Positions 18,061-42,297 of a stretch of 60,344 bases of DNA are shown one piece after another. The translations under genes and the position numbers were made by a program. Source of the stretch: Candidatus Acidiferrales bacterium (GTDB taxonomy: Bacteria; Acidobacteriota; Terriglobia; Acidiferrales; UBA7541). How positions within the stretch are numbered: position 1 is the stretch's first letter; every line of letters starts with the position of its first letter. The notes beneath the pieces are model-generated. The model was not told the DNA's origin. It saw only the letters and a program-made list of their open reading frames with translations, and ran no database searches. The DNA lies in NCBI GenBank assembly GCA_031296075.1, contig JARLGK010000222.1, positions 1 through 60,344 on the forward strand. Reading direction: 5' to 3'.

Positions 18061-18074
18061 GTGACGTGTCTCAC
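18061..18074. promoter_or_regulatory. GTGA-N6-TCAC palindrome (site 1)
   Basis: GTGACGTGTCTCAC, centred 55 bases before the minus-strand universal stress gene. It forms a pair with site 2, centres 22 bases apart (two helical turns). Likely operator for the Crp-like regulator encoded at 33861 (inference). Confidence 0.6.
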
Positions 18075-18082
18075 GCCCCGAC

Positions 18083-18096
18083 GTGATGGCCGTCAC
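18083..18096. promoter_or_regulatory. GTGA-N6-TCAC palindrome (site 2)
   Basis: GTGATGGCCGTCAC, partner of site 1. It is centred 77 bases before the start of the minus-strand universal stress gene and about 240 bases before the plus-strand one. Confidence 0.6.
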
Positions 18097-18261
18097 GCAG
18101 CGTTTTTCAAGAGGGCGGATTGCCGGAACGAAACGATAGCAAAGATTTCCAAAGGCGTGCGTGACGCAGGAGACTCTGCGATGAGGCGAGGAACGAAATT
18201 CGCGGGCCGCACAGTTATGACGGTCGCGAGTTTTCTCAGACGTCGTTTGTCACTTGCGTTG

Positions 18262-18275
18262 GTGACGCGCGTCAC
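18262..18275. promoter_or_regulatory. GTGA-N6-TCAC palindrome (site 3)
   Basis: GTGACGCGCGTCAC, a perfect 14-base palindrome centred 60 bases before the plus-strand universal stress gene. An activator bound here with a class II geometry would place the transcript start near 18310, shortly before the Shine-Dalgarno GGAGGT. No clear -35 or -10 hexamer is visible. Confidence 0.6.
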
Positions 18276-18328
18276 AGCACTCACTTACACGATGGGGCTA
18301 ACTGGGAGGGAAGTCACGGAGGTGGCCC

Positions 18329-19219
18329 ATGAAAGCGGTCCAGGCAAGAACGCGAATCCAGCTGAATAATATATTGTTCACGACGGACTTTTCAGCTCCC
18401 GCAGCCCTCGCTGCTCCCTACGCCGGAGCGCTCGCGAAGCGCTACGGGGCAAAACTTTATGCGCTGCACGTTCACGGACCCGTGGTCAACCCGATGACGC
18501 CGCCTGCCAGCTGGCCCGCGCTCGAGCAAGCCGCGGCGATCGGAGAAAACGAGCAAAAGAAAGAACTCGCCAAGACGTTCGCGGGAATCGAGACGACGGT
18601 CCTGATCAAGGAAGGCGCGCTGCTGCCACGCCTGCGAGCACTCATTGCCTCAGACAACATCGACATGATTGTGATGGGGACGCGGGGCCGCTCGGGCGTA
18701 GCAAAGATCTTGCTGGGCTCCGTGGCGGAGGAAGTCCTTCGCCAAGCGACGTGCCCAGTGTTGACAGTCGGTCCTAAAGCACCGGAGATGCCAAAACTCG
18801 GCGAGTTTACAGAGATCGTCTTCGCCACGGACTTCACGAAAGAATCTCTGGCTGCCGCGCCGTACGCGATTTCGCTGGCGCAGGAGTTCCAAGCAAACCT
18901 CACGCTCCTGCATGTAATCGAGAATCCGAAGGTGGGCGAGCTTGTTCGTGCCGAAGAGCTCGAGACCGCTTCCCTAAATCGCCTGCGCGAACTGGTGGGG
19001 CCGGAAACCGAACTCTGGTGCACCCCGCGATTCGAGGTCGAACAAGGCCCCGCAGCGGAAAAGATACTGGATGTTGCTCAGCGAAAACATGCGGACTTGA
19101 TCGTTCTCGGCGTGCGTGGCGCCAGCGGTGTTCCGGGCGCGGCAACTCATTTGCCGATAGCGACGGCGCACAAACTCGTTTCTCACGCAGCGTGCCCGGT
19201 CCTTACTGTGCGAGGATAG
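18329..19219 (+). CDS. tandem-domain universal stress protein
   Basis: 296 residues with two UspA domains (about 10-145 and 155-296). The first has the ATP loop [16 protein letters not shown] and CPVLTVGP. The second has [20 protein letters not shown], a weakened loop, as in its divergent paralogue. Strong Shine-Dalgarno GGAGGT before the ATG. It is followed after 58 bases by a P-type ATPase and then a synthetase-acetyltransferase on the same strand, so these three may form one operon under site 3. Tandem universal stress proteins typically rise under low oxygen or energy stress (family knowledge). Confidence 0.93.
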
Positions 19220-19277
19220 AGTCGAATCGCGCCAAGGCAAAGAGGATTTTCAGCGGCCAAAGCGGGGAGGACGATCA

Positions 19278-21203
19278 GTGGCGAGCCCGTTCCCCGACTT
19301 GAAAGGGGCAAATCCCGCTAAACGGCAGTCCCTTTCGAAGTCCGATCGGAAGCGAAGGAGTTGGGGCGTCTTCGACCTCCGACCGCCTGCACGCGCGATC
19401 ACGATTCTAGCGGTCGCGGGCATTGCGGCGCACATCCTTTTCCGGTACTTCCTGGGCACACAACGTCTCACATATCTCCTACCCCTCTACGCCGTGCTGG
19501 TCGGCGGCGGCATACCGCTTCTCGTTACGCTACTGAGGAAGGCCGTGGCGCGCGAATTCGGTTCGGATTTGTTGGCCGGGATCTCGATCGTGACCGCGGT
19601 GGTGCAGAGCGAATACCTGGTCGGCTCGATCGTGGTTTTGATGCTTTCAGGCGGCACGGCACTCGAGCAATTTGCAACGCGTCGCGCCACGTCCGTACTT
19701 GACGCACTCGCCAAACGCATGCCTCGAACCGCCCGCCGGAAAATTGGGGAGAATATTTCGGAGGTATCGCTTGAGGCGGTAGCCGTCGGCGACCTATTGG
19801 TCGTCTTCCCGCATGAGATTTGCCCGATTGACGGCGCCGTGGTGGACGGCCACGGAAAGATGGACGAAGCCTACCTTACGGGCGAACCCTTTGAGATATC
19901 GAAGACTCCTGGTTCTCAAGTTCTCTCCGGTGCAATTAACGGCGACTCGGCGCTGACGATTCGCGCGGAGAAACTCGCGGTTGATTCCCGGTATGCGCGA
20001 ATCATGCGGGTCATGCAGGAGACTGAGCAGAGACGGCCCCGGCTGCGTCGCATGGGCGACCGCTTGGGCGCGTGGTACACGCCGATGGCACTGCTGCTTG
20101 CCATCGCGGCCTGGGCGATCTCTCACCAGGCACATCGCTTTCTCGCGGTGCTCGTCGTCGCCACTCCCTGTCCGCTGCTGATTGCGATTCCGGTGGCAGT
20201 AGTTGGCGCAATTTCACTCTGCGCTCGGCGCGGGATCATTATCAAAAATCCAAGCGTCCTGGAGGAAATTGACCAGTGCCAGACTCTCATATTCGACAAG
20301 ACCGGAACGCTGACGTACGGGCGGCCGAAATTGTCGAGCATCGCCTGCGCGCCCGGCTATAGCGAAAACGAAGTGTTGCGATTGGCGGCAAGCCTTGAGG
20401 TCTACTCGAAGCATCCACTTTCGAGCGCAATTCTCGAGGCGGCGCGAACGGCAGGTCTGGCATTCGAGCCCGTTTCCGAAATGAGCGAGCGCCCGGGCGA
20501 GGGTTTGCGAGGAATCGTCGGGGGCCGAGAGATATGGATCACGGGACGTTCCAAATTGGCTGACCGAGAAAGCGCGTTGCCGGCAGCCACAACCGGCTTG
20601 GAGTGTCTCTTATTTCTGGGTGACTCTTGTGCAGCCGCTTTCCATTTTCACGACGCGCCGCGCAAAGACAGCCGCGGCTTTGTCGCCCACCTGAAACCAC
20701 GGCACGCAGTCAGCAAGGTCATGCTCGTTTCCGGGGATCGTGCGTCCGAAGCAACCTACCTGGCAGGACTTGTTGGCATCACGGAGGTACACGCTTCGAA
20801 GACGCCGGAAGAAAAAGTCGCGATCGTACGCGCGGAGACAGGCCGCAAGAAGACACTTTTCGTCGGCGATGGCATCAACGATGCGCCAGCGATGCAGGCG
20901 GCTACCGTTGGCGTGGCTTTTGGAGTCAGCAATGACGTCACCTCGGAAGCCGCTGATGCGGTCCTTCTGGAAGCTTCCCTTGGAAAGGTCGATGAACTGA
21001 TGCACATCGGCCGCCGTATGCGAAACATCGCGCTGCAAAGCGCAATAGGAGGCATGGCCCTCAGCCTGCTGGGGATGCTGGCGGCGGCGCTTGGTTATCT
21101 TCCGCCCATCGAGGGTGCGATCGCTCAGGAAGTGATTGATCTCCTGGCAGTATTAAACGCCATCCGAATTGTCATACCTCTCGAAGTTCTTACAGATTTC
21201 TAA
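19278..21203 (+). CDS. heavy-metal-type (P1B) P-type ATPase
   Basis: 641 residues; GTG start with GGAGG seven bases upstream. Motifs in order: actuator TGEPFEIS, the membrane motif [17 protein letters not shown] (the CP pair of metal-transport P1B pumps), phosphorylation site [12 protein letters not shown], nucleotide-domain SKHPLSSAI, hinge [10 protein letters not shown]. There is no N-terminal CxxC or His-rich metal-binding domain, and membrane helices start at about residue 38. The closest well-known type is a Zn/Cd/Pb or Co pump, but the metal is not determined. It is placed in the universal stress / acetyl-phosphate island, like metal ATPases in hypoxia regulons elsewhere. Confidence 0.88.
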
Positions 21204-21277
21204 CGTGCAAGCCTGGCCGCCCTCTCGTAAGATTCGGAGAACATGGACTGCTCGATGACGCGAAAGGCTACGGGACG

Positions 21278-23974: not shown

Positions 23975-24030
23975 CAAAATTCAATTCCGCGCTCACTCTC
24001 GCGTTCAGGCTTCACCTGGCTCAGGATTGG

Positions 24031-25248: not shown

Positions 25249-25251
25249 ACC

Positions 25252-27823: not shown

Positions 27824-28309
27824 TCAGGCCGCAACGCCCTTCTTCACGAGTTGCGGAAGCTGCGGAGCATACAGTTTCTTGAGTGTCACCGCGACGTCGT
27901 CGAAGGAGAGCTCGGTATGCTTACCCGAGATGCGCGGCTCGGCGTGGAGGGTCACATCGTCCATCGAGAGGATTCCCTCGAGCTTGCCTTCCGCATTGAT
28001 CACGGGCAGGCGGCGAACCTGCTGTTGCGCCATGGTGGCCAGTGCGCTTTGAATCTCGTCGCCCGGTTTGCAAGAAAACAGTTTTCCCGAGACCACATCG
28101 GCGATCGTTATTTCCCCCGGCAATCGATTCCGCGTTCCCAGGGCTATGCAGAGGTCCCGGTCCGTCACCACACCAACCACTTGGTTCTTTGCATTTACGA
28201 CGGGAAGCATCCCGCAGTTGCGATTCCATAGGATTTCAATCGCGGTTCCCAGATTCATTCCCAAGCTGCAAGTAGCCGGCGTCCTCATCATCACGTCTTG
28301 AACTTTCAT
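27824..28309 (-). CDS. paired-CBS-domain protein
   Basis: 161 residues with two CBS motifs. The first is about 1-58 (MKVQDVMMRTPATCSL, GMLPVVNAKNQVVGVVTDRD); the second is about 72-130 (VVSGKLFSCKPGDEIQSALA, VRRLPVINAEGKLEGILSMD). CBS pairs bind adenine nucleotides and sense energy state. Stand-alone pairs such as mycobacterial Hrp1 belong to hypoxia regulons. A strong Shine-Dalgarno (GAGAGGAAAA) precedes the ATG. It may be co-transcribed with xfp-ackA downstream and with the small gene at 28565 upstream. Confidence 0.9.
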   Translation of the reverse strand: MKVQDVMMRTPATCSLGMNLGTAIEILWNRNCGMLPVVNAKNQVVGVVTDRDLCIALGTRNRLPGEITIADVVSGKLFSCKPGDEIQSALATMAQQQVRRLPVINAEGKLEGILSMDDVTLHAEPRISGKHTELSFDDVAVTLKKLYAPQLPQLVKKGVAA

Positions 28310-28409: not shown

Positions 28410-28565
28410 TCAGACACCTAGCTCAGGATGCGATTCAAGCAGATAGTTCTTGAGTTGGAGCTCGGGCGCCCTCTTGCTCCGCAGCTTCCGTCTCGTTCGC
28501 TGAGCTCTTTTCGTTCTTGGAGCGACATCGGACCCCTTTGTAGTCCCCGCCATAGTTTTTCGCAT
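28410..28565 (-). CDS. small basic protein, 51 residues, unknown
   Basis: The frame starts at the ATG at 28565 with GAGGT seven bases upstream, a good Shine-Dalgarno. The product is very basic in its middle (PRTKRAQRTRRKLRSKRAP) and ends in ELQLKNYLLESHPELGV, a plausible amphipathic helix. No family recognised. It lies 100 bases upstream of the CBS gene on the same strand, downstream of a GTGA-N6-TCAC site. The frame continues open upstream to 28715, but with no better start. It could be a chance ORF; placement and ribosome-binding site argue for a gene. Confidence 0.4.
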   Translation of the reverse strand: MRKTMAGTTKGSDVAPRTKRAQRTRRKLRSKRAPELQLKNYLLESHPELGV

Positions 28566-28701
28566 TTTGTGAACCTCACAACGATTGTTTGCGCCGGCGA
28601 TCCTGGAGCGACGACCCGATCCCCATCCGGCGCCTATCCCGGTAACGACCACTAAGTCCATCGCTCCAACAATAGCTTCGCGCGGCGGAAGAAGAAGCAC
28701 A

Positions 28702-28715
28702 GTGACGGCGGTCAC
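28702..28715. promoter_or_regulatory. GTGA-N6-TCAC palindrome (site 4)
   Basis: GTGACGGCGGTCAC, between the 3' end of the Mg2+ ATPase gene and the small ORF at 28565 (centre 143 bases from its ATG). It would serve the small ORF, CBS and possibly xfp-ackA. Confidence 0.55.
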
Positions 28716-31279: not shown

Positions 31280-31579
31280 GGTCGGACCGCTGAAATCCTA
31301 CACAACTTGAACTGGCAGGGACAGCCAAATAGTCACGGCCACCCGTTCATTGAATGAAGTGGGGCACCGCCTCGTCTTCACGAGTCGGAGTCCTGTGCAC
31401 TCGATCCGATCTACCGTTCGAGTTCCCTCGAATCAGCCCAGCTGATGTATCATCTCGGTGGCTCAAGATTCCGAGGGCATCGATTCCGCCTAATCCCCCG
31501 TTCCAGCTCGGAACTGTGCCGCATCGCCGACGGGAACACGTACGCCATAGGCGTCTGGTTGGAACAAAGGTCCGGCGAA
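31280..31579. other. divergent intergenic region mgtA / sigma-54 activator
   Basis: 300 bases without a supported gene. A short perfect inverted repeat, TTCATTGAATGAA, lies at 31346-31358 and could be an operator. No GTGA-N6-TCAC site, no clear -24/-12 promoter. An in-frame upstream extension of the activator gene to 31445 has no coding character. Confidence 0.4.
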
Positions 31580-33376
31580 ATGAATGCGACTTCCCAGGGT
31601 AAAGGCGTGATCCTCGACCCTAAGGCTTTGTTTGAGAGGCTCTTTGAATCCTCTCCGGATGCTATCGTCGTGAGCGATCACGAGGGACGGATTACGAAGG
31701 CCAACGCGCAGGCCGAACGCATTTTTGGATTCACCCGCGACGAGCTTCTTGGCCAGCTCGTGGAAACTCTGGTCCCCGAACGATTTCGCAACGTATATCT
31801 TACACACCGCAAGGAATACAGCACCGATCCTCACGTGCGCCCCATGAGCGCCGGGACAGAACTATATGGCCTTCGCAAGGATGGAACCGAGTTCCCCGTG
31901 GATATCATGCTCAGCCCGGTTGAAGGAGCGGAAGGCAGGGTCGTGCTGAGCGTTATTCGCGACATTACGGAACGCAAACGGGCTGCGGAAGCGGTGCGGC
32001 TAAGTGAAACCCGTTTTCGGTCGCTCTTCGAGTATTCGCCGGATGCCATTATTGTGACTGACAGAGAAGGAAAGATCACGGAGGCTAATGGGCAAGTCCA
32101 AAAATTCTTCGGCTATGACCGCGCCGAACTCCTCGGCCATTCAATCGAGGTCTTGGTACCCGAACGATTCCGACACGCTCATCCGCATCACAGGAAAGAA
32201 TACACCGACAAAGCCCGCATTCGTCCGATGGGAGCCGGGCTGGAGCTTTACGGCCGGCGAAAAGACGGCACCGAATTCCCCGTGGATATCATGCTCAGTC
32301 CGGTCGACACGGAGATAGGGAAGGTCGTGTTGACCGTGGTCCGCGACCTCTCGGAAAAGGTGCGAACTCAGGAAGAATTGCGGCGGAGGGAACGAGAAAA
32401 ACGCTATCTTGAAGAGGAGCTCAATACCGAGCACAGATTTGAGGACATCATCGGAGAGAGCAAGGCGCTGAGAAGCATTCTGAAACAGGTCGAAACAGTC
32501 GCGACGACGGATGTAACTGTTCTGATCCTTGGAGAAACTGGCACGGGCAAGGACCTGATCGCGCGGGCGATTCATCAGCTCAGCTCGCGTAGCGGACGCA
32601 GTCTCATCAAGCTGAACTGCGCGGCGATTCCAACCGGGCTGCTGGAAAGCGAGCTTTTCGGGCACGAGAGGGGCGCGTTCACGGGTGCCATTTCACAGAA
32701 GATCGGCCGTCTCGAACTAGCCAACCAGGGATCCTTTTTTCTCGATGAAGTCGGGGACCTGCCCTTGGAACTCCAGCCCAAGATTCTGCGGGCCCTGCAG
32801 GAGAAGGAATTCGAGAGGCTCGGTGGTACGCGAACGATTCCCGTGGACGCCCGGCTCATCGCCGCCACGAACCGCGATCTCGGGCAAATGGTCGCCGACC
32901 GCCAATTCCGGAGCGACCTTTACTATCGTCTGAGAGTTTTTCCCATCACTCTGCCCCCGTTGCGCGAGCGGCGCGAAGACATCCCCCTTTTGGTCCGCTA
33001 CTTCGTTGACAAACACGCGCGGAGCTTGAATCGACAAATCGAGACCATTCCGTCTGATGTAATGAAGGCGCTTACACGCTGGCACTGGCCGGGAAACATT
33101 CGGGAACTTGAGAACTTCATTGAAAGAGCCGTGATACTTTCAAAAGGACCCTTGTTGCGCGCTCCCTTAGCTGAGCTGGAAAAGCCTGAGGAGCCATCCG
33201 CGTCCGACGATGTGACCCTCGAATCGAGCGGGAGAGAACATATCCTTCGTGTCTTGCGTGAAACCAAAGGCGTGATCGCCGGCCCCGGCGGAGCCGCGGC
33301 TCGGCTTGGACTTAAGAGAACGACGCTGAACTCCAAGCTCAAGAAACTGGGAATCGAGCGTGATGACTACATGTAG
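31580..33376 (+). CDS. PAS-PAS sigma-54-dependent transcription activator
   Basis: 598 residues from the ATG at 31580 (AAAGG upstream). Two PAS domains (about 15-135 and 143-258) are close copies of one another; both end in RKDGTEFPVDIMLSPV. A short coiled coil (about 265-285) leads to an AAA+ domain with Walker A GETGTGKD (318-325), the sigma-54 contact loop GAFTGA (365-370), and an R-finger region. The C-terminus is a Fis-type helix-turn-helix (AARLGLKRTTLNSKLKKLGI). No receiver domain, so it senses its signal itself through PAS, possibly redox or a ligand. It stands immediately before the STAS-crp unit. Confidence 0.93.
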   Translation: MNATSQGKGVILDPKALFERLFESSPDAIVVSDHEGRITKANAQAERIFGFTRDELLGQLVETLVPERFRNVYLTHRKEYSTDPHVRPMSAGTELYGLRKDGTEFPVDIMLSPVEGAEGRVVLSVIRDITERKRAAEAVRLSETRFRSLFEYSPDAIIVTDREGKITEANGQVQKFFGYDRAELLGHSIEVLVPERFRHAHPHHRKEYTDKARIRPMGAGLELYGRRKDGTEFPVDIMLSPVDTEIGKVVLTVVRDLSEKVRTQEELRRREREKRYLEEELNTEHRFEDIIGESKALRSILKQVETVATTDVTVLILGETGTGKDLIARAIHQLSSRSGRSLIKLNCAAIPTGLLESELFGHERGAFTGAISQKIGRLELANQGSFFLDEVGDLPLELQPKILRALQEKEFERLGGTRTIPVDARLIAATNRDLGQMVADRQFRSDLYYRLRVFPITLPPLRERREDIPLLVRYFVDKHARSLNRQIETIPSDVMKALTRWHWPGNIRELENFIERAVILSKGPLLRAPLAELEKPEEPSASDDVTLESSGREHILRVLRETKGVIAGPGGAAARLGLKRTTLNSKLKKLGIERDDYM

Positions 33377-33383
33377 TCATCAC
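33360..33383. repeat. perfect 24-base palindrome across a stop codon
   Basis: GTGATGACTACA followed directly by its exact reverse complement. It covers the last codons and the TAG of the sigma-54 activator gene. The outer ends are again GTGA and TCAC, but with 16 bases between. It could be a protein site or the base of a transcript hairpin. Confidence 0.7.
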
Positions 33384-33402
33384 TGACGACATCTCGTCAG
33401 TG
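33381..33402. repeat. 9-bp inverted repeat (hairpin)
   Basis: CACTGACGA, loop CATC, TCGTCAGTG. Perfect stem of nine pairs just after the activator stop codon; it shares three bases with the palindrome before it and three with site 5 behind it. There is no T run after it, so it is not a standard intrinsic terminator. Confidence 0.6.
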
Positions 33403-33413
33403 ACCGTCGTCAC
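33400..33413. promoter_or_regulatory. GTGA-N6-TCAC palindrome (site 5)
   Basis: GTGACCGTCGTCAC, centred 90 bases before the STAS gene that leads into the Crp-like regulator gene. Suggests that the regulator controls its own unit. Confidence 0.6.
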
Positions 33414-33496
33414 TTCGGAACTGTGTTCTAACTCACCAAAAGTGGTATCCCCTGTAACTCCTTGTATTTCTGCGCATCGGTCCACCTGATTCCAAA

Positions 33497-33859
33497 ATGG
33501 CACGTTGGCTTCCGACGTGCCTTAAATGGAATTGTAGCGCGGGGCGAAAGAAAACTACGCTAAAGATCACAGTCAGCGATGAGCCAGGAAGTACGACGGT
33601 GAAACTCGAGGGAAGAGTCGCAGGGCCCTGGGTGAACGAATGCGATCGAACCTGGCAGTCTGTAATCACTTCCCTCGGGTCGAAGAAATTGCGGGTTGAC
33701 CTTCGAGAGGTGACGTACATGGAGGCGCGCGGAAGAGAACTCCTGGCCGAAATGTACACAAGGACCGGGGCGGATTTTCTGGCCGATACGCCGATGACGA
33801 AATACCTCGCGGAAGAAGCACAGCGAGCAAATCAGAAAGACACAAGGAGGGGAGCATAA
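33497..33859 (+). CDS. STAS-like (anti-sigma antagonist type) protein, degenerate site
   Basis: 120 residues. After about 20 variable residues comes a STAS-like core: LKITVSDEPGSTTVKLEGRV, then LRVDLREVTYMEARGRELLA. In SpoIIAA-type proteins the stretch after VDL...VT reads DSSG, with a serine that is phosphorylated; here it is EARG (residues 76-79), so that site is missing. The start is taken as the ATG at 33497, but no Shine-Dalgarno is visible. The stop is one base before the Crp gene, so the two are coupled. A structural or partner-binding role with the Crp-like protein is possible (inference). Confidence 0.65.
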   Translation: MARWLPTCLKWNCSAGRKKTTLKITVSDEPGSTTVKLEGRVAGPWVNECDRTWQSVITSLGSKKLRVDLREVTYMEARGRELLAEMYTRTGADFLADTPMTKYLAEEAQRANQKDTRRGA

Positions 33860-33860
33860 C

Positions 33861-34577
33861 ATGCGCGGACCTTATGGTTTCGACATGAGCGACAGTTGCC
33901 AGAATGGCAAGTTGAAGAAGGCCGAGTTTTTCTGCGGGCTTTCACTTAAAGCGCTTAAGGACTTCGATTCGATCAAGTCCAGTTCCGTCTACCCAGAGGG
34001 CGCGGTACTCTTCCTCGAGAAGCAGGACGCGCGAGGCGTGTTCGTTCTCTGCGAAGGGGAGGTCAAGCTCACCATCAGTTCGAGCGAGGGAAAGACGCTC
34101 ATCCTGAGGATCGCCAAGCCTGGAGAGGTATTGGGACTAATGGCCACGCTTTCGGGCGAGCCTTACGAAGTTACCGCCGAGACCCTGCGGCCGTGTCAAG
34201 TTGCCTTCGTCCGGAGGGACGAGTTTCTGCGATTCATCGCCCAGCATCCCGAAGCGTCCCTGGGCATCGTCAAGCTTTTGACCGCTCATTATCACGCAGC
34301 ATGCGAACAGCTTAAGACCGTCGGACTCTCCGCTTCGGCTCCGGAAAAGCTTGCCCGTCTCTTGCTCGGCTGGTCGGTCGGAGGCGAAGAAACAAAGCTG
34401 GGAACCCGAATCACGCTGCCCCTGACGCATCAGGAGATCGCGGAGTTCATAGGCAGTTCTCGCGAAACAGTTACGCGCACCTTGAGTGATTTCAGAAGCA
34501 GGCATCTCGTAACGCTCAAGGGTTCCACCCTGATGATCGCGGACCGGCCGGCGTTGCAAGCCTGCGCCAACGATTAG
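33861..34577 (+). CDS. Crp/Fnr-family transcription regulator
   Basis: 238 residues, strong Shine-Dalgarno (GGAGGGGAG). N-terminal cyclic-nucleotide-binding-like beta roll (about 20-135: YPEGAVLFLEKQDARGVFVL, KPGEVLGLMATLSGE), dimer helix (about 137-165), C-terminal helix-turn-helix THQEIAEFIGSSRETVTR (189-206). Recognition residues Arg201, Glu202 and Arg206 match the CRP residues that read GTGA. The pocket residues that bind cAMP in CRP (Glu72, Arg82, Ser83) are not kept (Leu93 stands at Glu72). The cysteines (13, 25, 64, 112, 148, 235) do not form the FNR cluster pattern. The signal is unknown. Likely regulator of the GTGA-N6-TCAC sites in this window. Confidence 0.92.
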   Translation: MRGPYGFDMSDSCQNGKLKKAEFFCGLSLKALKDFDSIKSSSVYPEGAVLFLEKQDARGVFVLCEGEVKLTISSSEGKTLILRIAKPGEVLGLMATLSGEPYEVTAETLRPCQVAFVRRDEFLRFIAQHPEASLGIVKLLTAHYHAACEQLKTVGLSASAPEKLARLLLGWSVGGEETKLGTRITLPLTHQEIAEFIGSSRETVTRTLSDFRSRHLVTLKGSTLMIADRPALQACAND

Positions 34578-34648
34578 GGCATGGTTGTAAATCACTCGCG
34601 GGTCAAACTGAACGAAGTCCTCAAGATGCCAAAATTCTGGAGGGCGCG

Positions 34649-35040
34649 ATGCTGGATGCCACGCCAGTCTTGGTAATTTGTGAAGCGGGAAAGAACAGGG
34701 AGGATGTTGCTGCGGCTATTGGGAAATGCGGGTTGCGTCCTATCTGCAGTTCCGATTGGAACGAAGCTCAACCCATCGTCGCGCGGGGGAGTATAGCCTC
34801 GTGTTTTGCAGTGACACCCTGCCCGACAGTGACTTCCGAGCGGTCATAAGAGCCGTGGAGCCGGTGCCGGTGATTGTGCTGTCGCGCGTTGCCGAATGGG
34901 ATGCTTATCTGACCGCGCTGCAGGCGGGCGCATTCAATTACATCGCATGCCCGCCGGATCCAGCTGAAACTGGGCGAATTCTGTGGTCCGCGCTCGGTGA
35001 GTCTTCGCGGCGTGCCAATTTCGCTCAGGCTCATGTTTGA
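34649..35040 (+). pseudogene. receiver-like protein, frameshifted
   Basis: Begins at an ATG with GGAGG six bases upstream. The first frame reads MLDATPVLVICEAGKNREDV to AQPIVARG. After the run of five G at 34785-34789, coding continues in another frame: EYSLVFCSDTLPDSDFR, VPVIVLSRVAEWDAYLTALQ, AGAFNYIACPPDP, ending at 35040. Joined, this is a response-regulator receiver-like fold of about 130 residues without an output domain. One missing G in the run explains the break; it may be a real mutation or a sequencing/assembly error. Follows the Crp gene by 71 bases on the same strand. Confidence 0.65.
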
Positions 35041-35123
35041 TCGCCCGCCGCTAAGAATTGGCAATCCCGCCTGAAACAAGGGAGCCTGCCTTCTGCGGCG
35101 GTTGGGAAATCAGCCCGCGCCCG

Positions 35124-35972
35124 TTACGCCGCATTCTCCAGAACAAGAAGCCCTGTGGCAGTGTTTGACACCGCAATATGGTAGCTGCTGTGGATCTTCG
35201 TGACGTGTCCGTGGAGAACACCACGCATGGCGAGCCAGAGGATGAACTCCGCGCCCTGCGCCCCCGCCTCGCGCACTAGTTCATGGATTGAATACTTGGT
35301 AAGGAATTCCGGCTCGTTCACAAGCTTGTCCAGGCACAGTAGGTCAAATTTCTTGTTAATGAAGCCGGCGCGCTCGCCATCGAGCTGATGGGACATGCCG
35401 CCTGTACCCAGCACTACCACCTTCAAATCCTTGGGGTAGGACTCGATCGCGCGGCCGATGGCCTGTCCAAGCTTAAAGCAGCGCAACGGTGACGGCAGAG
35501 GATGCTGCACCGTGTTGATGCACACTGGAACCGTCTTGATGCCGCCATAAGAATTGCCCGGCCAGAAAAGCGACATTGGCACTGTGAACCCATGATCTAC
35601 CAGCATCTCCTGGCACGACGTGATGTCGAATTCGTCGGCAACGAGCGATTCGATGATGTGCCAGGAAAGCTCGGGATCGCCCTGGTAAGGCGGCGTCTTC
35701 GGGATGCCCCAACCCTCGTCGGCGTTTTCATACCGTGCGGCGGCTCCGATCGCGAACGTCGGCATCTTGTCGAGGAAGAAATTCAACCCGTGGTCGTTGT
35801 AGATGACGACGGCGACGTCCGGATTCATCTTTTGCAGCCACGCGCGAGCCGGCGGATAGGCGGCAAAAAAAGGCTTCCAGTAAGGATCATTAGCCAGCTC
35901 TTTTTCTCTCGGAACAGCATTCCCGATTGCAGGAATATGCGATGTCGTAAGTCCGCCAACGACGCGTGCCAT
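35124..35972 (-). CDS. ligB: class III extradiol ring-cleavage dioxygenase, LigB type
   Basis: 282 residues. Very close in pattern to LigB, the catalytic subunit of protocatechuate 4,5-dioxygenase: MARVVGGLTTSHIPAIG with His12, VVIYNDHGLNFF with His61, DEGWGIPKTP, LVDHGFTVPMSLFWPG, GTGGMSHQLDGERAGFINKK, and the late AEFILWLAMRG with the metal-ligand glutamate. It uses Fe(II) and O2 to open catechol-type rings. The C-terminus is about 20 residues shorter than Sphingobium LigB. Start codon three bases after ligA, with AAGGAG. No other aromatic-pathway gene is nearby, so the substrate is open (gallate or another catechol acid is possible). Confidence 0.9.
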   Translation of the reverse strand: MARVVGGLTTSHIPAIGNAVPREKELANDPYWKPFFAAYPPARAWLQKMNPDVAVVIYNDHGLNFFLDKMPTFAIGAAARYENADEGWGIPKTPPYQGDPELSWHIIESLVADEFDITSCQEMLVDHGFTVPMSLFWPGNSYGGIKTVPVCINTVQHPLPSPLRCFKLGQAIGRAIESYPKDLKVVVLGTGGMSHQLDGERAGFINKKFDLLCLDKLVNEPEFLTKYSIHELVREAGAQGAEFILWLAMRGVLHGHVTKIHSSYHIAVSNTATGLLVLENAA

Positions 35973-35975
35973 GGA

Positions 35976-36332
35976 TTATTCTCCTTGATCCTTGAGCTTC
36001 TGTCTGAAGGCTTCGAGGGTCATGCCGGTCTGCTGGGCGCCAATCTCCTGAACGTTCAGTCCGAAAATTCCCGCGAACTTCGCCAGGTAGTAGATGCACC
36101 CGCCGGCGTGGATCATGGCCAGGACATTGCGCTCGTGGATGGCTTTGCGCTGCTCGTCGTTCAGGCCGTACTTGGTGCAATACGCATCTTCGTCGTTCTT
36201 GAACTCGGCGCGGTTTTCGGCATTATTGAACGAATAGCACATCTTGTTCAGCGCATATCCCTTCATGGCCGCTCGTCCGTCGAACATGTAGGTGCCGGGA
36301 ATTGGCACTTCATGATGCGTTATCAGGCTCAT
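35976..36332 (-). CDS. ligA: LigA-type small subunit of extradiol dioxygenase
   Basis: 118 residues from the ATG at 36332, chosen because AGAGGAG lies seven bases upstream; the frame is open to an ATG at 36368. All-helical small subunit that caps the LigB active site: IPGTYMFDGRAAMKGYALNK, MCYSFNNAENRAEFKNDEDA, YCTKYGLNDEQRKAI, HAGGCIYYLAKFAGIFGLNV. This matches the LigA family throughout. It is the first gene of the ligAB pair; two GTGA-N6-TCAC palindromes lie about 111 and 133 bases (centres) before it. Confidence 0.9.
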   Translation of the reverse strand: MSLITHHEVPIPGTYMFDGRAAMKGYALNKMCYSFNNAENRAEFKNDEDAYCTKYGLNDEQRKAIHERNVLAMIHAGGCIYYLAKFAGIFGLNVQEIGAQQTGMTLEAFRQKLKDQGE

Positions 36333-36436
36333 CCTGAAACTCCTCTGACTCGGTTCCGCAACAACCATAAATCCACGCAGACCTGACCGTCAAACCCGCG
36401 CACTGCATGAATACACTCGGCGAAGGCTCATTGGCA

Positions 36437-36450
36437 GTGACACGTATCAC
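36437..36450. promoter_or_regulatory. GTGA-N6-TCAC palindrome (site 6)
   Basis: GTGACACGTATCAC, upstream of ligAB and just after the 3' end of ctaG. Paired with site 7, centres 22 bases apart, the same spacing as sites 1 and 2. Confidence 0.6.
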
Positions 36451-36458
36451 AAATCCCC

Positions 36459-36472
36459 GTGACTCAGGTCAC
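36459..36472. promoter_or_regulatory. GTGA-N6-TCAC palindrome (site 7)
   Basis: GTGACTCAGGTCAC, partner of site 6, ten bases from the ctaG stop codon. Confidence 0.6.
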
Positions 36473-36481
36473 GTCTGGACT

Positions 36482-37822
36482 CTAGTGGCCAAGGCCGACT
36501 TCCCCGCCACGCACTTTGGTAACCCGTGCAACCTCCACCTTGCTGGCAATTGAACCGCGCTCGTCGCCGCGGTTAACTGAAACGTTCAGTTCCCAAGTGC
36601 CGGCGCTGGGTAGATCAATCGAGGCAGCCTCAAGAAGATGGTTCGCCGCCCGTTCGCGAGTGGCCTTGGCAATCGTGGGATTCGGGTTCTGCCCTTCGGG
36701 CGGTTGAACAGTTATTTCCACAGCGCCATCCAGGACCGCTGCACTCGTGCCCTGGTCCTGTATCAGCACGGCAACATCAAACTCACCACTGGGGACTGGA
36801 TCCGGCACCGTAAACACGCTGATGTGGAAAGGGCCCGAGACTCCCTGCATCCTTACAACATCACCATCAATATCGAGCTTTTCGGGCGCGAGCAGGCCAT
36901 AGCCAACTGCTGCGAGCGGAAGAATCAACGCCATAGCCAGCAGCGAGGAAGACAGGATTCGCGATTCGGGCAGCGGCGGTCGAAGCTGGCGCTCGACTCG
37001 CGGAGGCGCGGGCGAGAGCAGTCGCACCGTGATGGCAGCGGCAGGGATCAGAAATGCAAACGATCCAATCACCCACATGATGGCGCCCGCGGCGACCTGA
37101 TCGTTCTGCGCGGAGATTCCGCCCAGGCGCGGCACCGCCAGGTACGACGGGTAGAAGACGTGATCTGAGAAAGCCAGAAACGCCGATAGCGCCGAGTTCA
37201 CGAAATCCGCGAGCAACAGGTACACGGGCAGCATCCACGGATTCCACCGGGGCCGGCTCGGCCAGGGTTGGACGACAGGCCACCAGAAAACTAACGACGA
37301 GATGAGGAAGGAGGCGTGTTCGACCTCGTGCCAGCCGGGTGAACGCAGGGCCAACTCGTAAGGAGCGGGAAGATGCCATCCGATCATCGCCGCTGACACC
37401 AGAAGCAATGAAATGGGAGGGTAAGTCAGCAGCCGGCCAATTGCGCTGATCGTCCGCGACCGCAGGAAAGGTCCTGCCACATTCCGCGTGGCCCAGCGTG
37501 GCAGCCCGTGGAGCAAAGGAATCACCGGATCACTCAAAAGTACAAGCGGGGGGACGATCATCATCAGAAGCATGTGCTGGAGCATGTGGTCGGTGAGCAG
37601 GAATGGATCGAATGCGTCGATGGGCGAGGCGAGCGCCACCTCCAGAATTGCGACGCCGCCCACGAACGACACCAGCCGGTAAACTGTGAACCGCCCGGGC
37701 ATCGCGCGATGAAGCGCGCTCCAGCCGCGAATATAGAGCAGCGTCGTGAGTAAATTGAGAGCCGTGATCCAAGGCGGGAAAGACCAGGAAGTGAGGACAG
37801 CCTGGGCCACAGAAGGCATCAA
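36482..37822 (-). CDS. ctaG: CtaG-type cytochrome oxidase assembly protein with extra C-terminal domain
   Basis: 446 residues. The first ~320 residues form the polytopic caa3_CtaG domain: FLLTDHMLQHMLLMMIVPPL, HDxxx-like HVEHASFLISSLVFWWPVVQP region, and FSDHVFYPSYL. The family serves copper-site assembly of caa3-type oxidases. The remaining ~120 residues after the last membrane helix (about 300-320) form a periplasmic beta domain (GPFHISVFTVPDPVPSGEFD, GTWELNVSVNRGDERGS) resembling FixH/YtkA-like proteins, an unusual fusion. It is the last gene of the oxidase operon ctaC-D-E-x-G. Confidence 0.82.
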   Translation of the reverse strand: MMPSVAQAVLTSWSFPPWITALNLLTTLLYIRGWSALHRAMPGRFTVYRLVSFVGGVAILEVALASPIDAFDPFLLTDHMLQHMLLMMIVPPLVLLSDPVIPLLHGLPRWATRNVAGPFLRSRTISAIGRLLTYPPISLLLVSAAMIGWHLPAPYELALRSPGWHEVEHASFLISSLVFWWPVVQPWPSRPRWNPWMLPVYLLLADFVNSALSAFLAFSDHVFYPSYLAVPRLGGISAQNDQVAAGAIMWVIGSFAFLIPAAAITVRLLSPAPPRVERQLRPPLPESRILSSSLLAMALILPLAAVGYGLLAPEKLDIDGDVVRMQGVSGPFHISVFTVPDPVPSGEFDVAVLIQDQGTSAAVLDGAVEITVQPPEGQNPNPTIAKATRERAANHLLEAASIDLPSAGTWELNVSVNRGDERGSIASKVEVARVTKVRGGEVGLGH

Positions 37823-37872
37823 CGTACTTTATAGAGAGACGCGCGAAACTGCTCGCGGATTCATGGCGCGTC

Positions 37873-38733
37873 TCATCGCGGGGGATTCTGCTCGCCGACC
37901 TCGTGCATCATGCCGGGAGATTCGATGCCAGCCCTCGCAGCGAGCGGAAATTGCCAAGTGGGCACACGCACCTGCCGCACCACGACGAGCCCGGCCACTA
38001 CGCCGAATGCAACCTGCGAGACGAGGAACCAGAGCCAGTCAATCCGCTGATTGAGCAATGGGTCGATGAGGTCGAGGACCGAATAGAGCAGTCCCGTCCA
38101 AACCAGCGGGGCAAACACTCCGCCCACTAGAATTGGTCGCCGCGGAAGCATAGGCAGAATGGCGCCATAGAGAAGTCCCACTAGGATCGAAGTCGTCAGG
38201 TGAAGGACCGTGGCGACGAGCAGCAGCTCGATATGGAATGCAGAGATCTGCGCCGTGCTCACTTCCGTCTGGGCATAGACCACGGCGCCCAACAGATTGA
38301 TGGGATACCAGACGCTGCCGTGGCTAATGACGCCGTACAGGATGGCGGATACAGCCATGGCGACGCTGCCAGCGAGTCCACCCTTAATGCCGGCCGAGAT
38401 GGGATAAATCTCCAGCGGCAGACGCGCCCGATGGGGCGCCTGAGCCGCGGCCATCCGCGACACCTTGCGGTGCGACACGGCAATTGTCACAGGTTTGGCG
38501 TCCACGGAAACGTCCTCGTGCCGATCGTGCGGAAGAACCTGCAGGAACCAACCGATGCCACCTACGACACAGAGGACTGCTCCCACGATGCTCAACACGC
38601 GGCTGCCGACCAGCCCGGCCGCGGCCAACGTCAGTCCCAGCGCCAGCAGGCCCGGCCAAACACTGGGTGCCGGCAGGCTGACATGTGCCGGTATGGGAGA
38701 TGCAGCCGGACTTGATGGATGTCCCGAGCTCAT
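37873..38733 (-). CDS. membrane protein of the cytochrome oxidase operon
   Basis: 286 residues with about seven hydrophobic segments. The N-terminal part (about 25-65, LLALGLTLAAAGLVGSRVLS followed by IVGAVLCVVGGIGWFLQVLP) resembles the short membrane helices seen in small oxidase subunits. The rest (about 115-260) has four or five helices (GGLAGSVAMAVSAILYGVIS, LLLVATVLHLTTSILVGLLY, FLVSQVAFGVVAGLVVV). No catalytic motif. Position between ctaE and ctaG suggests an accessory role in oxidase assembly or stability (inference). Confidence 0.7.
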   Translation of the reverse strand: MSSGHPSSPAASPIPAHVSLPAPSVWPGLLALGLTLAAAGLVGSRVLSIVGAVLCVVGGIGWFLQVLPHDRHEDVSVDAKPVTIAVSHRKVSRMAAAQAPHRARLPLEIYPISAGIKGGLAGSVAMAVSAILYGVISHGSVWYPINLLGAVVYAQTEVSTAQISAFHIELLLVATVLHLTTSILVGLLYGAILPMLPRRPILVGGVFAPLVWTGLLYSVLDLIDPLLNQRIDWLWFLVSQVAFGVVAGLVVVRQVRVPTWQFPLAARAGIESPGMMHEVGEQNPPR

Positions 38734-38760
38734 TTTGCCCTCATTTGCAGTTCCTCTGCG

Positions 38761-39357
38761 TTACCGGCCGACAATGTAAACTACGGTGAACACCACCACC
38801 CAAACCGCGTCAACAAAATGCCAGTACAGAGCGAATACTTCGCACCGCTCGCTGTGCTCGCGTTTTATTTTCCCTGCGAGGCCCAAAATCGCCACGATGG
38901 TTAGTCCAATCAATCCTGCCGTGACGTGAGACGCGTGCAACCCGACCAAGGAATAGTAGGTCGTCCCGAACAGATTAGTTTGGATCGTGAACCCTTCCTG
39001 GTAAATCAAGTGCTGCCACTCGCGCCCCGTCCCGGCGAGAAAAATCGCGCCGAGCACAAGCGTGATCAGCCAAAACACATTGAAGCTGGCCGTCTTACCT
39101 TTGCGCAGCGTGGCAATCGCCCAATGCATCGTCAGGCTGCTCGACAGGAGACAGACCGTGATAAAAATGGGAATCTTGAGAACTTGTCGAGGCGTGGGTC
39201 CATCGAGGCTCTTCCCGATGTAGAAAATGTAGGCAGCGACGAAAATCATGAAGATCGCCGACTCCGCGATAATCAGCGAAATCATCCCGACGCGCCCGCG
39301 TGAGGGGAGCACCCAAGGAGTATCATTCCCGGCCATGACTGCTGGGCTTGCGCTCAT
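38761..39357 (-). CDS. ctaE: cytochrome c oxidase subunit III
   Basis: 198 residues, the short five-helix form of subunit III. Motifs: RVGMISLIIAESAIFMIFVA (first helices with the conserved Glu), WQHLIYQEGFTIQTNLFGTT, YSLVGLHASHVTAGLIGLTI and the end YWHFVDAVWVVVFTVVYIV. It stabilises the catalytic subunit of the inner-membrane oxidase. It follows ctaD with a 26-base gap and precedes the accessory membrane protein. Confidence 0.92.
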   Translation of the reverse strand: MSASPAVMAGNDTPWVLPSRGRVGMISLIIAESAIFMIFVAAYIFYIGKSLDGPTPRQVLKIPIFITVCLLSSSLTMHWAIATLRKGKTASFNVFWLITLVLGAIFLAGTGREWQHLIYQEGFTIQTNLFGTTYYSLVGLHASHVTAGLIGLTIVAILGLAGKIKREHSERCEVFALYWHFVDAVWVVVFTVVYIVGR

Positions 39358-39383
39358 GAGTATTTGCGATCCTCCGTCATGCT

Positions 39384-41045
39384 CTACTCATACTTCCAGT
39401 CCGGATCGTCGGGATGCTTGATATCCCAGAGTGGCCTACGGCTGCGCACCGCCGGGACGCCGGCAAAGTTGTAGTCCGGCGGCGGCGAAGTGGTGGCCCA
39501 TTCAAGCGTCCACGCATCCCAGGGATCATTGCCTGCCAAAGCGCCGTGGAAGTAGGACACGATCATGTTGTAGACGAAAATCAGGATTCCCGCAGCCTGG
39601 AAGATTGCGCCGATGGACGAAATCATGTTCCAGGTTTCCCAGCCTCGGCCCGCTTCGTAAGTGTAAACCCGTCGCGGCATCCCCAGAAGTCCCGGAATGT
39701 GCATGAAATCGAAGGTGAGGTGAAATCCGATCAGGAAAATCCAGAAGTGCCACTTTCCGAGTGTTTCATTCAGCATCCGGCCGGTGATTTTAGGGTACCA
39801 ATAATAGAACCCCGCAAAAATCGTGAAGAGGATCCCGCCCACGATCACGTAGTGAAAGTGCGCGACCACGAAGTAGGAAGCCGAGAGCTGCCAATCGAAT
39901 GGCGCCGTAGCCAACATGATGCCCGTCAGGCCCGCGATCAGGAACTGGAACAGAAAGCCAATGCAGAAGAGCATCGGCGTCGCGAAGCGGATTTTCCCGC
40001 CCCAAATCGTCGCGAGCCAATTGAATATCTTGATGCCCGTCGGCACGGCAACCACCATGGTGGTGAGAACAAAAAACGCGTTTCCGTAAGAAGGCATACC
40101 AACGGTGAACATATGGTGCGCCCATACCCCCAAGCTCACGAATCCAATGCTCACCGACGCCGCTACCATCGCCGGATAGCCGAACATCGCCTTGCGCGAA
40201 AATACGGGAACGATCTCGGATACGAAACCAAAGCACGGAATGATCAGAACGTAGACTTCGGGGTGGCCGAATATCCAGAAGAAGTGCATCCACATCACGA
40301 CGGAGCCGCCGGCCGCCGTATCGAAGAAGTGTCCGCCAATGTAGCGGTCAGCCATCAGCATCAGCTGGGCGGCTGTGAGCGGACTGATCGTGACGAGGAT
40401 CAGTCCACCCATGACCAGATTCATCCACGCCAGCAATGGCATCCGGCTCAACGTCATTCCCGGGCACCGCATGCATAGGATCGTGGCGATAAAATTTACA
40501 GCGGCGCCGATGCTGCCGACGCCTGCCAGAAGTAACGAAAGGGTCCAGTAGTCCGTGCTATGCCCTGGAGAGAACGTGGGTGAGGTGAGTGGCGCGTAAG
40601 CAAACCACCCGACGTCCGGCGCGCTGCCTGCTTGTGAGAGTCCCCCTCCGGCAAAAAAGCTCGCATACAAGAAAAATCCGCCGAATGCCGTCATCCAGAA
40701 GCTGAAAGCATTCAGTCGAGGGAACGCCATGTCCCGCGCCCCGATCATCAGGGGCACCAGATAGTTTCCAAAACCGAAAAGGATCGGCATGGCCACGAAA
40801 AACACGCCGGTGGTGCCATGTAACGTAAACAGGCGATTGAATACTTCGGGCGATAGAAAAGTCGCATTGGCGTGCGACAACTGGATGCGCATAAGGATCG
40901 CCTCGATCCCCATGACGACCAGGAACAGCAAGGCGTAGACGATATACATCAGCCCGATCTTTTTGTGATCGGCCGTAGCCACGCACTCGTACACGACGTG
41001 CAGCGGGCTCTTGTGAACCCTCAGGGCTATGGATTCCGACGCCAT
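39384..41045 (-). CDS. ctaD: cytochrome c oxidase subunit I
   Basis: 553 residues, twelve membrane helices. Catalytic heme-copper subunit that reduces O2 to water and pumps protons. Haem a ligand region LFTLHGTTGVFFVAMP near 70; Cu-B and Tyr region FWIFGHPEVYVLIIPCFG, whose Glu in GHPEV marks type A1 oxidases with a D-channel; VWAHHMFTVGMPSYGNAFF; haem pair region YFVVAHFHYVIVGGILF. The operon has no ctaA/ctaB (haem a synthesis) or Sco gene in the window; these must lie elsewhere. Confidence 0.96.
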   Translation of the reverse strand: MASESIALRVHKSPLHVVYECVATADHKKIGLMYIVYALLFLVVMGIEAILMRIQLSHANATFLSPEVFNRLFTLHGTTGVFFVAMPILFGFGNYLVPLMIGARDMAFPRLNAFSFWMTAFGGFFLYASFFAGGGLSQAGSAPDVGWFAYAPLTSPTFSPGHSTDYWTLSLLLAGVGSIGAAVNFIATILCMRCPGMTLSRMPLLAWMNLVMGGLILVTISPLTAAQLMLMADRYIGGHFFDTAAGGSVVMWMHFFWIFGHPEVYVLIIPCFGFVSEIVPVFSRKAMFGYPAMVAASVSIGFVSLGVWAHHMFTVGMPSYGNAFFVLTTMVVAVPTGIKIFNWLATIWGGKIRFATPMLFCIGFLFQFLIAGLTGIMLATAPFDWQLSASYFVVAHFHYVIVGGILFTIFAGFYYWYPKITGRMLNETLGKWHFWIFLIGFHLTFDFMHIPGLLGMPRRVYTYEAGRGWETWNMISSIGAIFQAAGILIFVYNMIVSYFHGALAGNDPWDAWTLEWATTSPPPDYNFAGVPAVRSRRPLWDIKHPDDPDWKYE

Positions 41046-41074
41046 GATTTTCTTCGTCTCTCTCCTCTTCGCGT

Positions 41075-42127
41075 TCAGCGAAGCGTCAACAAATACGCCG
41101 TGATCTGATCCAACTCCTGTTCAGTGATGTCGGGAGCCGGCATCAGGGAGCCGGGCTTGAAGCTAGCGGGATTGTGGACCCATTGACGCAGGTTCTCCGG
41201 CGTGAGAGGCACGGCCCCTGAACCAATCGTATCGCGGCTCATCAGGTGAGTCAGATCTGGCCCCACGATTCCCGCGGCGATCGTTCCGCGCACCGTGTGG
41301 CAGGCGAAGCACGCTTTGGTGATAAACAAGGCGCTGCCGCTGGCCACGGCCGGATCGGACGCGGCCGGCTGCTGCTGTGCATGTACCCATTTATTGAATT
41401 CCTCGCGGCTTTGCACATAGACGCGTTGAAGCATCTTGGCGTGCTGCACTCCGCAGTACTGCGAGCACTGGCCGAGAAATAGTCCCGTCTCCTGCGGATC
41501 AATCCACATGGTGTTGGGGTGATTTGGAATCAAGTCGGTCTTTCCCGCAAGTCTCGGCACCCAGAAACTGTGATCCACATCTGCCGATTGCAACGCGAGA
41601 AATGTTGGTGTGGGGAGCTGGGGAGCGCTCAAGGGCACGTGTAGTTCGTTGGAAGCGACAAAGCCATATTGCGGGTACCGGAATTCCCACCAGAATTGGT
41701 GTGCCACGACAGTCACTTCGATCGTGCCCGGTGGTCGGCGTGCGTCTTGCACGCGGTGGATCACCTGCGCGGTCGTCAGGAACAGCACAACGACAATCAG
41801 AACCGGGAGCACCGTCCACGCCAGCTCCATCTGGTTGCTGCCGTAAACCTGAGGCGGCTCCGAATCGTCGTCATTCTTTCGTTGACGAAACTTGGTGATG
41901 GCATACGCAAGCAGGCTGAACACAACTACAAAGATTGCGCCTTCCACTTCGAGCTCAAATATGGAAAGTCGGAATATCGAATGAGCAGGCGTGGAGTCCG
42001 GCGCGAAAATGTTGGTAGGACCGAAGAAACCGTCGCGCGCGTCCGCAAATGTCGGGAGGGTGGCCCAAGATAGCAACGCCGCCACCACAGCCACCCGCCA
42101 CCCTACAAATCCTGGACTTTCCTTCAA
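41075..42127 (-). CDS. ctaC: cytochrome c oxidase subunit II with fused cytochrome c (caa3 type)
   Basis: 350 residues. Signal sequence, two membrane helices (one in IFVVVFSLLAYAITKF, one in ELAWTVLPVLIVVVLFLTTA), then a periplasmic CuA domain with GQCSQYCGVQHAKML. The C-terminal ~90 residues are a class I cytochrome c: CFACHTVRG haem motif and SLMPAPDI with the axial Met. This fusion defines caa3 oxidases. The start is a TTG at 42127 or a nearby GTG; no strong ribosome-binding site. It is the first gene of the oxidase operon; a GTGA-N6-TCAC site lies 163 bases upstream (centre). Confidence 0.94.
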   Translation of the reverse strand: MKESPGFVGWRVAVVAALLSWATLPTFADARDGFFGPTNIFAPDSTPAHSIFRLSIFELEVEGAIFVVVFSLLAYAITKFRQRKNDDDSEPPQVYGSNQMELAWTVLPVLIVVVLFLTTAQVIHRVQDARRPPGTIEVTVVAHQFWWEFRYPQYGFVASNELHVPLSAPQLPTPTFLALQSADVDHSFWVPRLAGKTDLIPNHPNTMWIDPQETGLFLGQCSQYCGVQHAKMLQRVYVQSREEFNKWVHAQQQPAASDPAVASGSALFITKACFACHTVRGTIAAGIVGPDLTHLMSRDTIGSGAVPLTPENLRQWVHNPASFKPGSLMPAPDITEQELDQITAYLLTLR

Positions 42128-42283
42128 GACTTACCGTCCCCCATATCGACACCGCAAGAGCGGATCTTACACTCGACAGTCTACTACGCGCTTCATCCAA
42201 ATTACGAATGGCTGCTATGAGTTCGCGGGTGGGCGCTGGCAAGCCCAAACCGTAGGCTAATCGCACCCTGGCGGGCACTGTCT

Positions 42284-42297
42284 GTGACGCAGGTCAC
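42284..42297. promoter_or_regulatory. GTGA-N6-TCAC palindrome (site 8)
   Basis: The core GTGACGCAGGTCAC is flanked by T and A, giving TGTGA-N6-TCACA, the exact E. coli CRP consensus form. It lies between ctaC (minus strand) and the 3' end of the GGDEF gene. Confidence 0.6.

Follow-up and report, generated by a model that had tools for sequence, protein, structure and literature searches.

Paired GTGA-N6-TCAC palindromes as candidate operators of a Crp/Fnr-type regulator in the Terriglobia

A 60,344-nt stretch of DNA from a Candidatus Acidiferrales bacterium (Acidobacteriota, class Terriglobia; assembly GCA_031296075.1, contig JARLGK010000222.1), referred to below as the window, contains a 24-kb island in which the palindrome GTGA-N6-TCAC recurs between genes, one of which (33861-34577) encodes a Crp/Fnr-type protein. 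We propose that these palindromes are operators of this protein and of its Terriglobia relatives, many of them arranged as paired elements of the class II type, and that by gene content they would serve a response to a low supply of oxygen or energy. On the basis of the sequence comparisons reported here, we give this reading a probability of about 0.72.

Palindromes accumulate in the intergenic spaces of the island

The window contains ten exact GTGA-N6-TCAC sites, versus a mean of 0.89 and a maximum of 3 in 100 dinucleotide shuffles, none of which reached ten; a preliminary description of this DNA had likewise expected about one site by chance. The eight intergenic sites that it listed (18061, 18083, 18262, 28702, 33400, 36437, 36459 and 42284) are all exact. 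The only other exact matches, at 29739 and 46135, are both coding, in agreement with that description. Within the island (18013-42297), eight of the nine sites are non-coding although the non-coding share of the bases, which rests on gene calls derived from codon-position GC, is only about 10% (binomial, 7e-8). The genome-wide scan proposed in the same description yielded 93 sites in 3.19 Mb, versus 15 for the reversed pattern; 43 of the 93 lay outside our site list, seven of these being the window's own. Outside the window, 17 of 20 single sites fall inside called open reading frames (ORFs) and three outside. These 20 are the first of 43 entries in our list that belong neither to the window nor to the pairs described below, and are not a random draw. 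Because eight of nine island sites are non-coding while 17 of these 20 are in ORFs, the island represents a real hot spot. The coding sites elsewhere would suit the view that so short a motif merely occurs everywhere, as chance or coding background, but neither the shuffles nor the non-coding position of the island sites nor their retention before orthologous genes (see below) fits it; a chance origin of the island sites is ruled out by the shuffles and this retention, and the background explanation has next to no likelihood in our eyes.

Pairs of palindromes share one spacing

Four of the island sites form two abutting pairs (18061/18083 and 36437/36459), whose members lie 22 bp apart from start to start, and hence from centre to centre, and together make up a 36-bp element. 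The full pattern GTGA-N6-TCAC-N8-GTGA-N6-TCAC is found at five exact places in the source genome, two in the window and the others on contigs C17, C117 and C196 (G, C and L numbers are our designations of genomes, contigs and loci), with further copies bearing one mismatch (C165 and C230) or two (C171); when up to three mismatches are allowed, there are 19 places, versus five for the reversed pattern. In a set of 61 genomes comprising the source genome and 60 relatives, exact sites separated by a gap of 0-30 form 89 pairs in 28 genomes, against one pair for the reversed control (sums of per-genome counts). A gap of 8 accounts for 71 of these pairs, in 21 genomes (reversed control, 0), where evenly distributed gaps would give about three, and other gaps account for the remaining 18. 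The same spacing emerges when 54 single sites with an assigned orientation, taken from the regions retrieved and including exact gap-9 pairs, are compared with their surroundings: partners with at most two mismatches occur 13 times at -22/-23 and 12 times at +22/+23, and 0-2 times at each of the other offsets displayed. Of 396 genomes drawn from the phylum, 21 have exact gap-8 pairs (control, 0), namely 13 of 47 of the same class and 8 of the other 349. Beyond the phylum, 35 genomes reached via distant Crp relatives contain no gap-8 pair; pairs of any gap from 0 to 30 number three there (one with gap 9), with two for the reversed control.

The preliminary description had suggested that the sites form a local regulon. 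They do behave like operators of a Crp-family protein, but the pairs on C17, C117 and C196, and those on other contigs of the relatives, rule out a purely local regulon: in the relatives, pairs are spread over many contigs and precede genes of the glyoxylate shunt and genes for cytochromes, Hsp20, OsmC, CBS proteins and dehydrogenases.

Some pairs have a gap of 0 or 1, namely G007:C22:4498-4525 (L154), G018:C76:31197-31225 (L163), G001:C8:98964-98992 (L170) and G006:C435:1646-1674 (L180); crp paralogues lie within about 0.2 kb of those at L154 and L163. These pairs may represent another type of operator, built around an inner TATCAC-GTGATA dyad.

A -10-like hexamer peaks at a narrow distance from the pairs

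We searched for TAnnnT, independently of gene calling, in both directions around 63 distinct gap-8 pairs (126 directions). This set leaves aside eight of the 71 gap-8 pairs (G022 C43, C45, C60 and C67; G045 C37; G050 C74; G053 C144 and C146); ten of the 63 are marked as lying within an ORF, and inspection by eye places most of these either near the 5' end of an ORF called too long or inside a short ORF. The hexamer starts 22 nt beyond the pair in 18 of the 126 directions and 23 nt beyond it in eight, whereas each remaining offset between 0 and 71 has 0-3 such starts. In the gene-facing subset it is found at 22 nt in 15 of 78 directions and at 23 nt in six; position +24 is A in 63% and position +28 is T in 62%. 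If the hexamer is taken as positions -12 to -7, the proximal palindrome is centred at -41.5/-42.5 and the distal one at -63.5/-64.5. Four pairs (L151, L155, L173 and L070) have the hexamer on both sides; that at L155 lies between genes for isocitrate lyase and an AMP-binding acyl-CoA synthetase, and that at L173 between a malate synthase gene and a gene that clusters with the L155 acyl-CoA synthetase.

The same data could be read as repression, with two abutting dimers shutting the promoter and the -41.5 register reflecting mere overlap with the -35 element, a position from which a bound protein could also block the polymerase. Blocking, however, would tolerate many positions, whereas the narrow 22-23 nt distance of the -10 fits what class II activation needs, and no conserved -35 was seen around the pairs besides the site itself (TTGAC gave eight scattered matches). 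A repressor is thus rather improbable, and class II-type activation is the reading that we carry forward.

The candidate regulator and its distribution

The protein encoded at 33861-34577 was correctly assigned to the Crp family in the preliminary description, as it contains both domains of the Crp/Fnr superfamily (PF00027, 3.2e-20; PF13545, 1.4e-19). As judged by eye, an R-E-x-x-x-R recognition helix is present in all 30 aligned proteins of its clade, in which cysteines are found at positions 13 (30 of 30), 16 (28), 25 (29), 64 (29) and 112 (13). According to an excerpt of PMC1274295, the helix residues R180 and E181 are reported to go with operator positions G3 and A6. Five Crp-family proteins were found in the assembly (89% complete), and the island's is the only one among them whose recognition helix is of the CRP type; the other four (contigs C32, C176, C136 and C114; L274-L277) share an unusual helix of the GTTRSRVNFFMNKF type. 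With this helix (TTR[SP]RVN/SFFMN type), these four were judged by eye unfit as binders of the palindromes.

The regulator and the pairs tend to occur together: gap-8 pairs are present in 19 of 34 genomes with a clade regulator (E<1e-40) versus 2 of 27 without one (Fisher, 9e-5, a value that overstates independence, to the detriment of our reading, because the genomes share ancestry). At L149, L151, L159, L200 and L201 a pair immediately precedes a crp gene, and further pairs lie beside other crp genes, so that autoregulation of the regulator appears likely.

One may ask whether this is an ordinary cyclic AMP (cAMP)-CRP regulon, in which the protein binds cAMP at standard CRP operators and the pairing is incidental. 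In its favour, both the operator core and the R-E-x-x-x-R helix match CRP, and the best-matching solved structures belong to CRP-type proteins (3d0s, 6.9e-20). However, the PRTSSA stretch of 3d0s, which we take to be the phosphate-binding part of cAMP binders, aligns with PYEVTA in the 33861 protein; four conserved cysteines are not a feature of CRP; and a single gap in 71 of 89 pairs means that the pairing is not incidental. Against the NCBIfam models, the protein scored 57.9 bits for the CRP equivalog (cut-off 266) and 32.9 bits for Fnr (cut-off 228), and stayed below every NCBIfam cut-off. We therefore regard an ordinary cAMP-CRP regulon as unlikely. Equally unlikely in our view is that another protein, for instance a paralogue missing from the assembly, binds the sites and that the crp gene of the island is only one of its targets. 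The assembly is 89% complete, several relatives encode at least two clade paralogues and the window copy lacks Cys16, all of which would suit such a binder; but the 33861 protein has the sole CRP-type helix among the five Crp-family proteins found, and its gene is situated among the sites. The 33861 protein thus remains our candidate regulator.

Sites are conserved before orthologous genes

The preliminary description had named conservation before the same genes in relatives as a check, and this is largely what we observed. In eight relatives with a LigA orthologue (at least 66% identity; sites sought up to 320 nt upstream), seven have an exact site upstream and six a pair with at most one mismatch. 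A coxB orthologue was examined in 14 relatives, and in eight of them an exact site lies within 420 nt upstream; these are eight of the ten genomes with a clade regulator (E<1e-50) and none of the four without. Scoring left aside four LigA hits of lower identity (27-41%), an additional G011 copy (62%) and the coxB hits with no more than 35% identity. In 13 stretches around relatives of the regulator, gene starts were set to the starts of the tblastn matches and the upstream limit to 350 nt. A site is present upstream of eight of the 11 usp homologues, of the STAS-like gene in five of nine cases (G035 and L073, which resemble one contig, counted once) and of none of the six sigma54-activator genes.

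Predicted targets

Pfam scans covered 39 proteins encoded near pairs, taken from 81 listed downstream proteins or chosen by hand, and hence not a random sample. They revealed CBS, Hsp20, OsmC, phosphoketolase, acyl-CoA synthetase/GNAT, fructose bisphosphatase, zinc dehydrogenase and PNPOx families, together with NrfD, isocitrate lyase, malate synthase, cytochrome c, a multihaem CXXCH protein, P-type ATPase and molybdopterin oxidoreductase, as well as a histidine kinase and about ten proteins with no Pfam hit. When the 81 proteins (one of which is listed twice) were clustered, ten grouped with the usp products of the window, beside eight pairs, five with crp, four with LigA and four in a family with no Pfam hit in the two members tested. 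In the source genome, the exact pairs outside the window precede a gene for a CBS-domain protein (C196) and genes for proteins without a Pfam hit (C17 and C117). By its content, this gene set suggests a low-oxygen, low-energy response.

Two conserved families stand out near pairs of several genomes, one comprising L191 4251-5678 and L176 4359-5756, the other L192 4184-4855 with members at L143, L168 and L198. The members tested of the L191 and L192 families have no Pfam hit; the L191 protein has a CxxCH-like motif.

Observations that weigh against the proposal

Several observations count against the proposal. In the island, exact pairs occur at only two of the five operator places, and the window's own sites have no strict -10 (TAnnnT) at 22-23 nt, the near misses being TATTCA at 23 nt (ligA), TAGCCT at 24 nt (coxB) and TATTGT at 27 nt (28702, - strand); among the 63 pairs, 41 likewise have no TAnnnT at this distance. 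As for co-occurrence, 15 of the 34 clade genomes lack an exact pair, and the two non-clade genomes with pairs (G026 and G053, of 27) are at odds with a strict association. In the 13 stretches, retention of a site is imperfect before the STAS-like gene (five of nine) and before the CBS gene (one of two). YkuD transpeptidase, protein kinase and ABC2-type membrane protein genes lie beside pairs but are off the theme. The link to metal transport drawn in the preliminary description proved weak: neither of the island's two P-type ATPase genes has an exact site directly upstream. The two P-type ATPase orthologues in the 13 stretches do have a site within about 210 nt, in a space that a divergent usp gene shares. 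Finally, the window copy of the regulator has Gly16 in place of the usual Cys16, and it is for this protein that the idea of a cysteine-based sensor is weakest, because Cys16 is absent there.

Organization of the island

The coordinates of the predicted operators and of the genes around them are collected in Table 1.

Table 1. Candidate operators, regulator and neighbouring genes in the window
Feature	Coordinates	Strand	Remark
Crp/Fnr-type regulator	33861..34577	+	Helix SSRETVTR; Cys13/Cys25/Cys64/Cys112; Gly16
Putative paired operator between divergent usp genes	18061..18096		49 nt from - strand usp start
Putative paired operator before ligA	36437..36472		Paired in 6/8 relatives with a ligA orthologue
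Putative single operator before usp 18329	18262..18275		Exact motif match
Putative single operator 393 nt upstream of CBS gene 27824-28309	28702..28715		Exact motif match
Putative single operator before STAS-like and crp genes	33400..33413		Site recurs in 5/9 orthologous loci
Putative single operator 156 nt upstream of coxB	42284..42297		Site upstream of coxB in 8/14 relatives
Weak -10 candidate TATTCA	36408..36413	-	Misfit to TAnnnT; 23 nt from ligA pair
Universal stress protein, two Usp domains	17107..18012	-	Likely target
Universal stress protein, two Usp domains	18329..19219	+	Likely target
Two-CBS-domain protein	27824..28309	-	Likely target
PAS-PAS-sigma54 activator gene	31445..33376	+	
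STAS-like small protein gene	33497..33859	+	Directly 5' of crp; weak profile support
ligB and ligA, dioxygenase-family	35124..36368	-	Likely target operon
caa3-type oxidase cluster: coxB, cox1, cox3, gene without Pfam hit, ctaG	36482..42127	-	Likely target

The site at 28702 had been described as preceding a unit made of a small ORF and a CBS gene. The site is there, but the CBS gene starts at some distance from it and the start codon of the small ORF (28410-28715) falls within the palindrome; this ORF has no NCBIfam hit. The NCBIfam scan took in the regulator, six other proteins and both the STAS-like and small ORFs; acetate kinase was the one protein to receive a name, the rest giving no hit or scores below cut-off. 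The STAS label previously given to 33497-33859 holds in part: a STAS match was obtained for two of four tested orthologues, weak and under the curated cut-off, but the ORF itself has no Pfam hit at 1e-3. The order activator, STAS-like gene, crp recurs at six loci of relatives (L202, L204, L206, L207/L208, L211/L212 and L072). This trio (31445-34577 in the window) is possibly a partner-controlled Crp module, in which, speculatively, the STAS-like partner may modulate the regulator.

Two features adjoin these genes. A perfect 24-bp palindrome (33360-33383) spans the stop codon of the sigma54-activator gene and is followed by a second inverted repeat immediately 5' of the operator at 33400; the inverted repeats in 33360-33400 could be a terminator or another operator. 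Downstream of crp, the stretch 34649-35040 encodes what looks by eye like a receiver-type domain split over two frames, which suggests a decayed gene or an assembly error.

Discussion

The motif, its spacing in pairs, the class-wide position of the -10, the conservation before orthologues and the co-occurrence with the regulator are read directly from the genomes; from them we infer binding, activation, cooperation between dimers and a signal, as follows. A dimer of the regulator would bind GTGA-Y-N4-R-TCAC through the helix SSRETVTR. With centres 22 bp apart, or about two helical turns, two dimers would be neighbours on the same face of the helix. The one closer to the promoter, near -41.5, would replace the -35 element and activate in the class II manner, while the distal one, near -63.5, would aid binding of the proximal dimer or contact the polymerase tail. 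Because the element is symmetric, either dimer could play either part, which makes two divergent promoters possible. The targets would be genes for stress proteins, acetate and glyoxylate metabolism, cytochromes and oxidases, along with crp genes themselves, and the signal would perhaps be an iron-sulphur cluster or the redox state of cysteines, and probably not cAMP.

A wider claim would be that these proteins form a hitherto undescribed class of Terriglobia Crp/Fnr regulators, which combine CRP-like specificity with a cysteine-based, probably iron-sulphur, sensor, act as two abutting dimers on a symmetric 36-bp element that drives two divergent promoters from -41.5/-63.5, and constitute a master switch for low oxygen and low energy. 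We advance this as a tentative idea, with a chance somewhat short of even. Acidobacteria abound in soils, and most of them have yet to be cultured. The arrangement described here may switch on low-energy metabolism in related soil bacteria; the 36-bp element, which can be searched for as an exact pattern, offers a ready first map of the regulon in genomes without cultures, and the geometry of the pairs makes them a clean test case for activation by two touching dimers.

Compared with E. coli cAMP-CRP, whose details we give partly from general knowledge, the operator core GTGA-N6-TCAC and the R-E-x-x-x-R helix are alike. The present system differs in lacking the cAMP-pocket stretch, in its cysteines and in its abutting sites at one register. 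To our knowledge, natural E. coli promoters do not usually carry CRP sites that abut at -41.5/-63.5, since that space is taken up by the tail of the polymerase alpha subunit. Class II CRP promoters of E. coli have the site at -41.5, as stated in an excerpt of PMC5957442. The outer T/A of TGTGA is also weak in the present sites, unlike in CRP operators, with a flanking T in 36% and a flanking A in about 32%. HcpR, a Crp/Fnr protein of Desulfovibrio and relatives, has the operator wTGTGAnnnnnnTCACAw according to excerpts of PMC1274295 and PMC5701242, so that the core is common to both systems and the flanking T/A is weak in ours. HcpR is described for nitrogen-oxide stress; no hcp-type gene appeared among the downstream proteins scanned, in which no search aimed at hcp was made.

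An N-terminal cysteine cluster and a gene content of redox and respiration are shared with FNR/ANR. FNR has four iron-sulphur cysteines, C-x2-C-x5-C plus Cys122. The clade has C-x2-C-x8-C plus Cys64, with a cysteine at the position aligned to FNR Cys122 in only 13 of 30 proteins; the FNR four-cysteine pattern is thus not found in the clade, where a different geometry of an iron-sulphur cluster is possible. Operator and helix are also of the CRP type, unlike the TTGAT-N4-ATCAA of FNR. The DosR regulon of mycobacteria comprises usp, CBS, Hsp20 and P-type ATPase genes under a two-component response regulator, DosR. For the lxa locus of Burkholderia, a citation and excerpts in PMC3759415 point to a gene set similar to the present one, including usp, CBS, Hsp20 and P-type ATPase. 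In the present case, a similar gene set goes with a Crp-type protein and paired palindromes instead. In the open-licence literature searched, we found no Crp/Fnr regulon or operator for Acidobacteria, the present one included. Altogether, the regulator, the pairing of its predicted operators and its predicted targets are a variation on known Crp/Fnr regulation, and not a wholly new kind.

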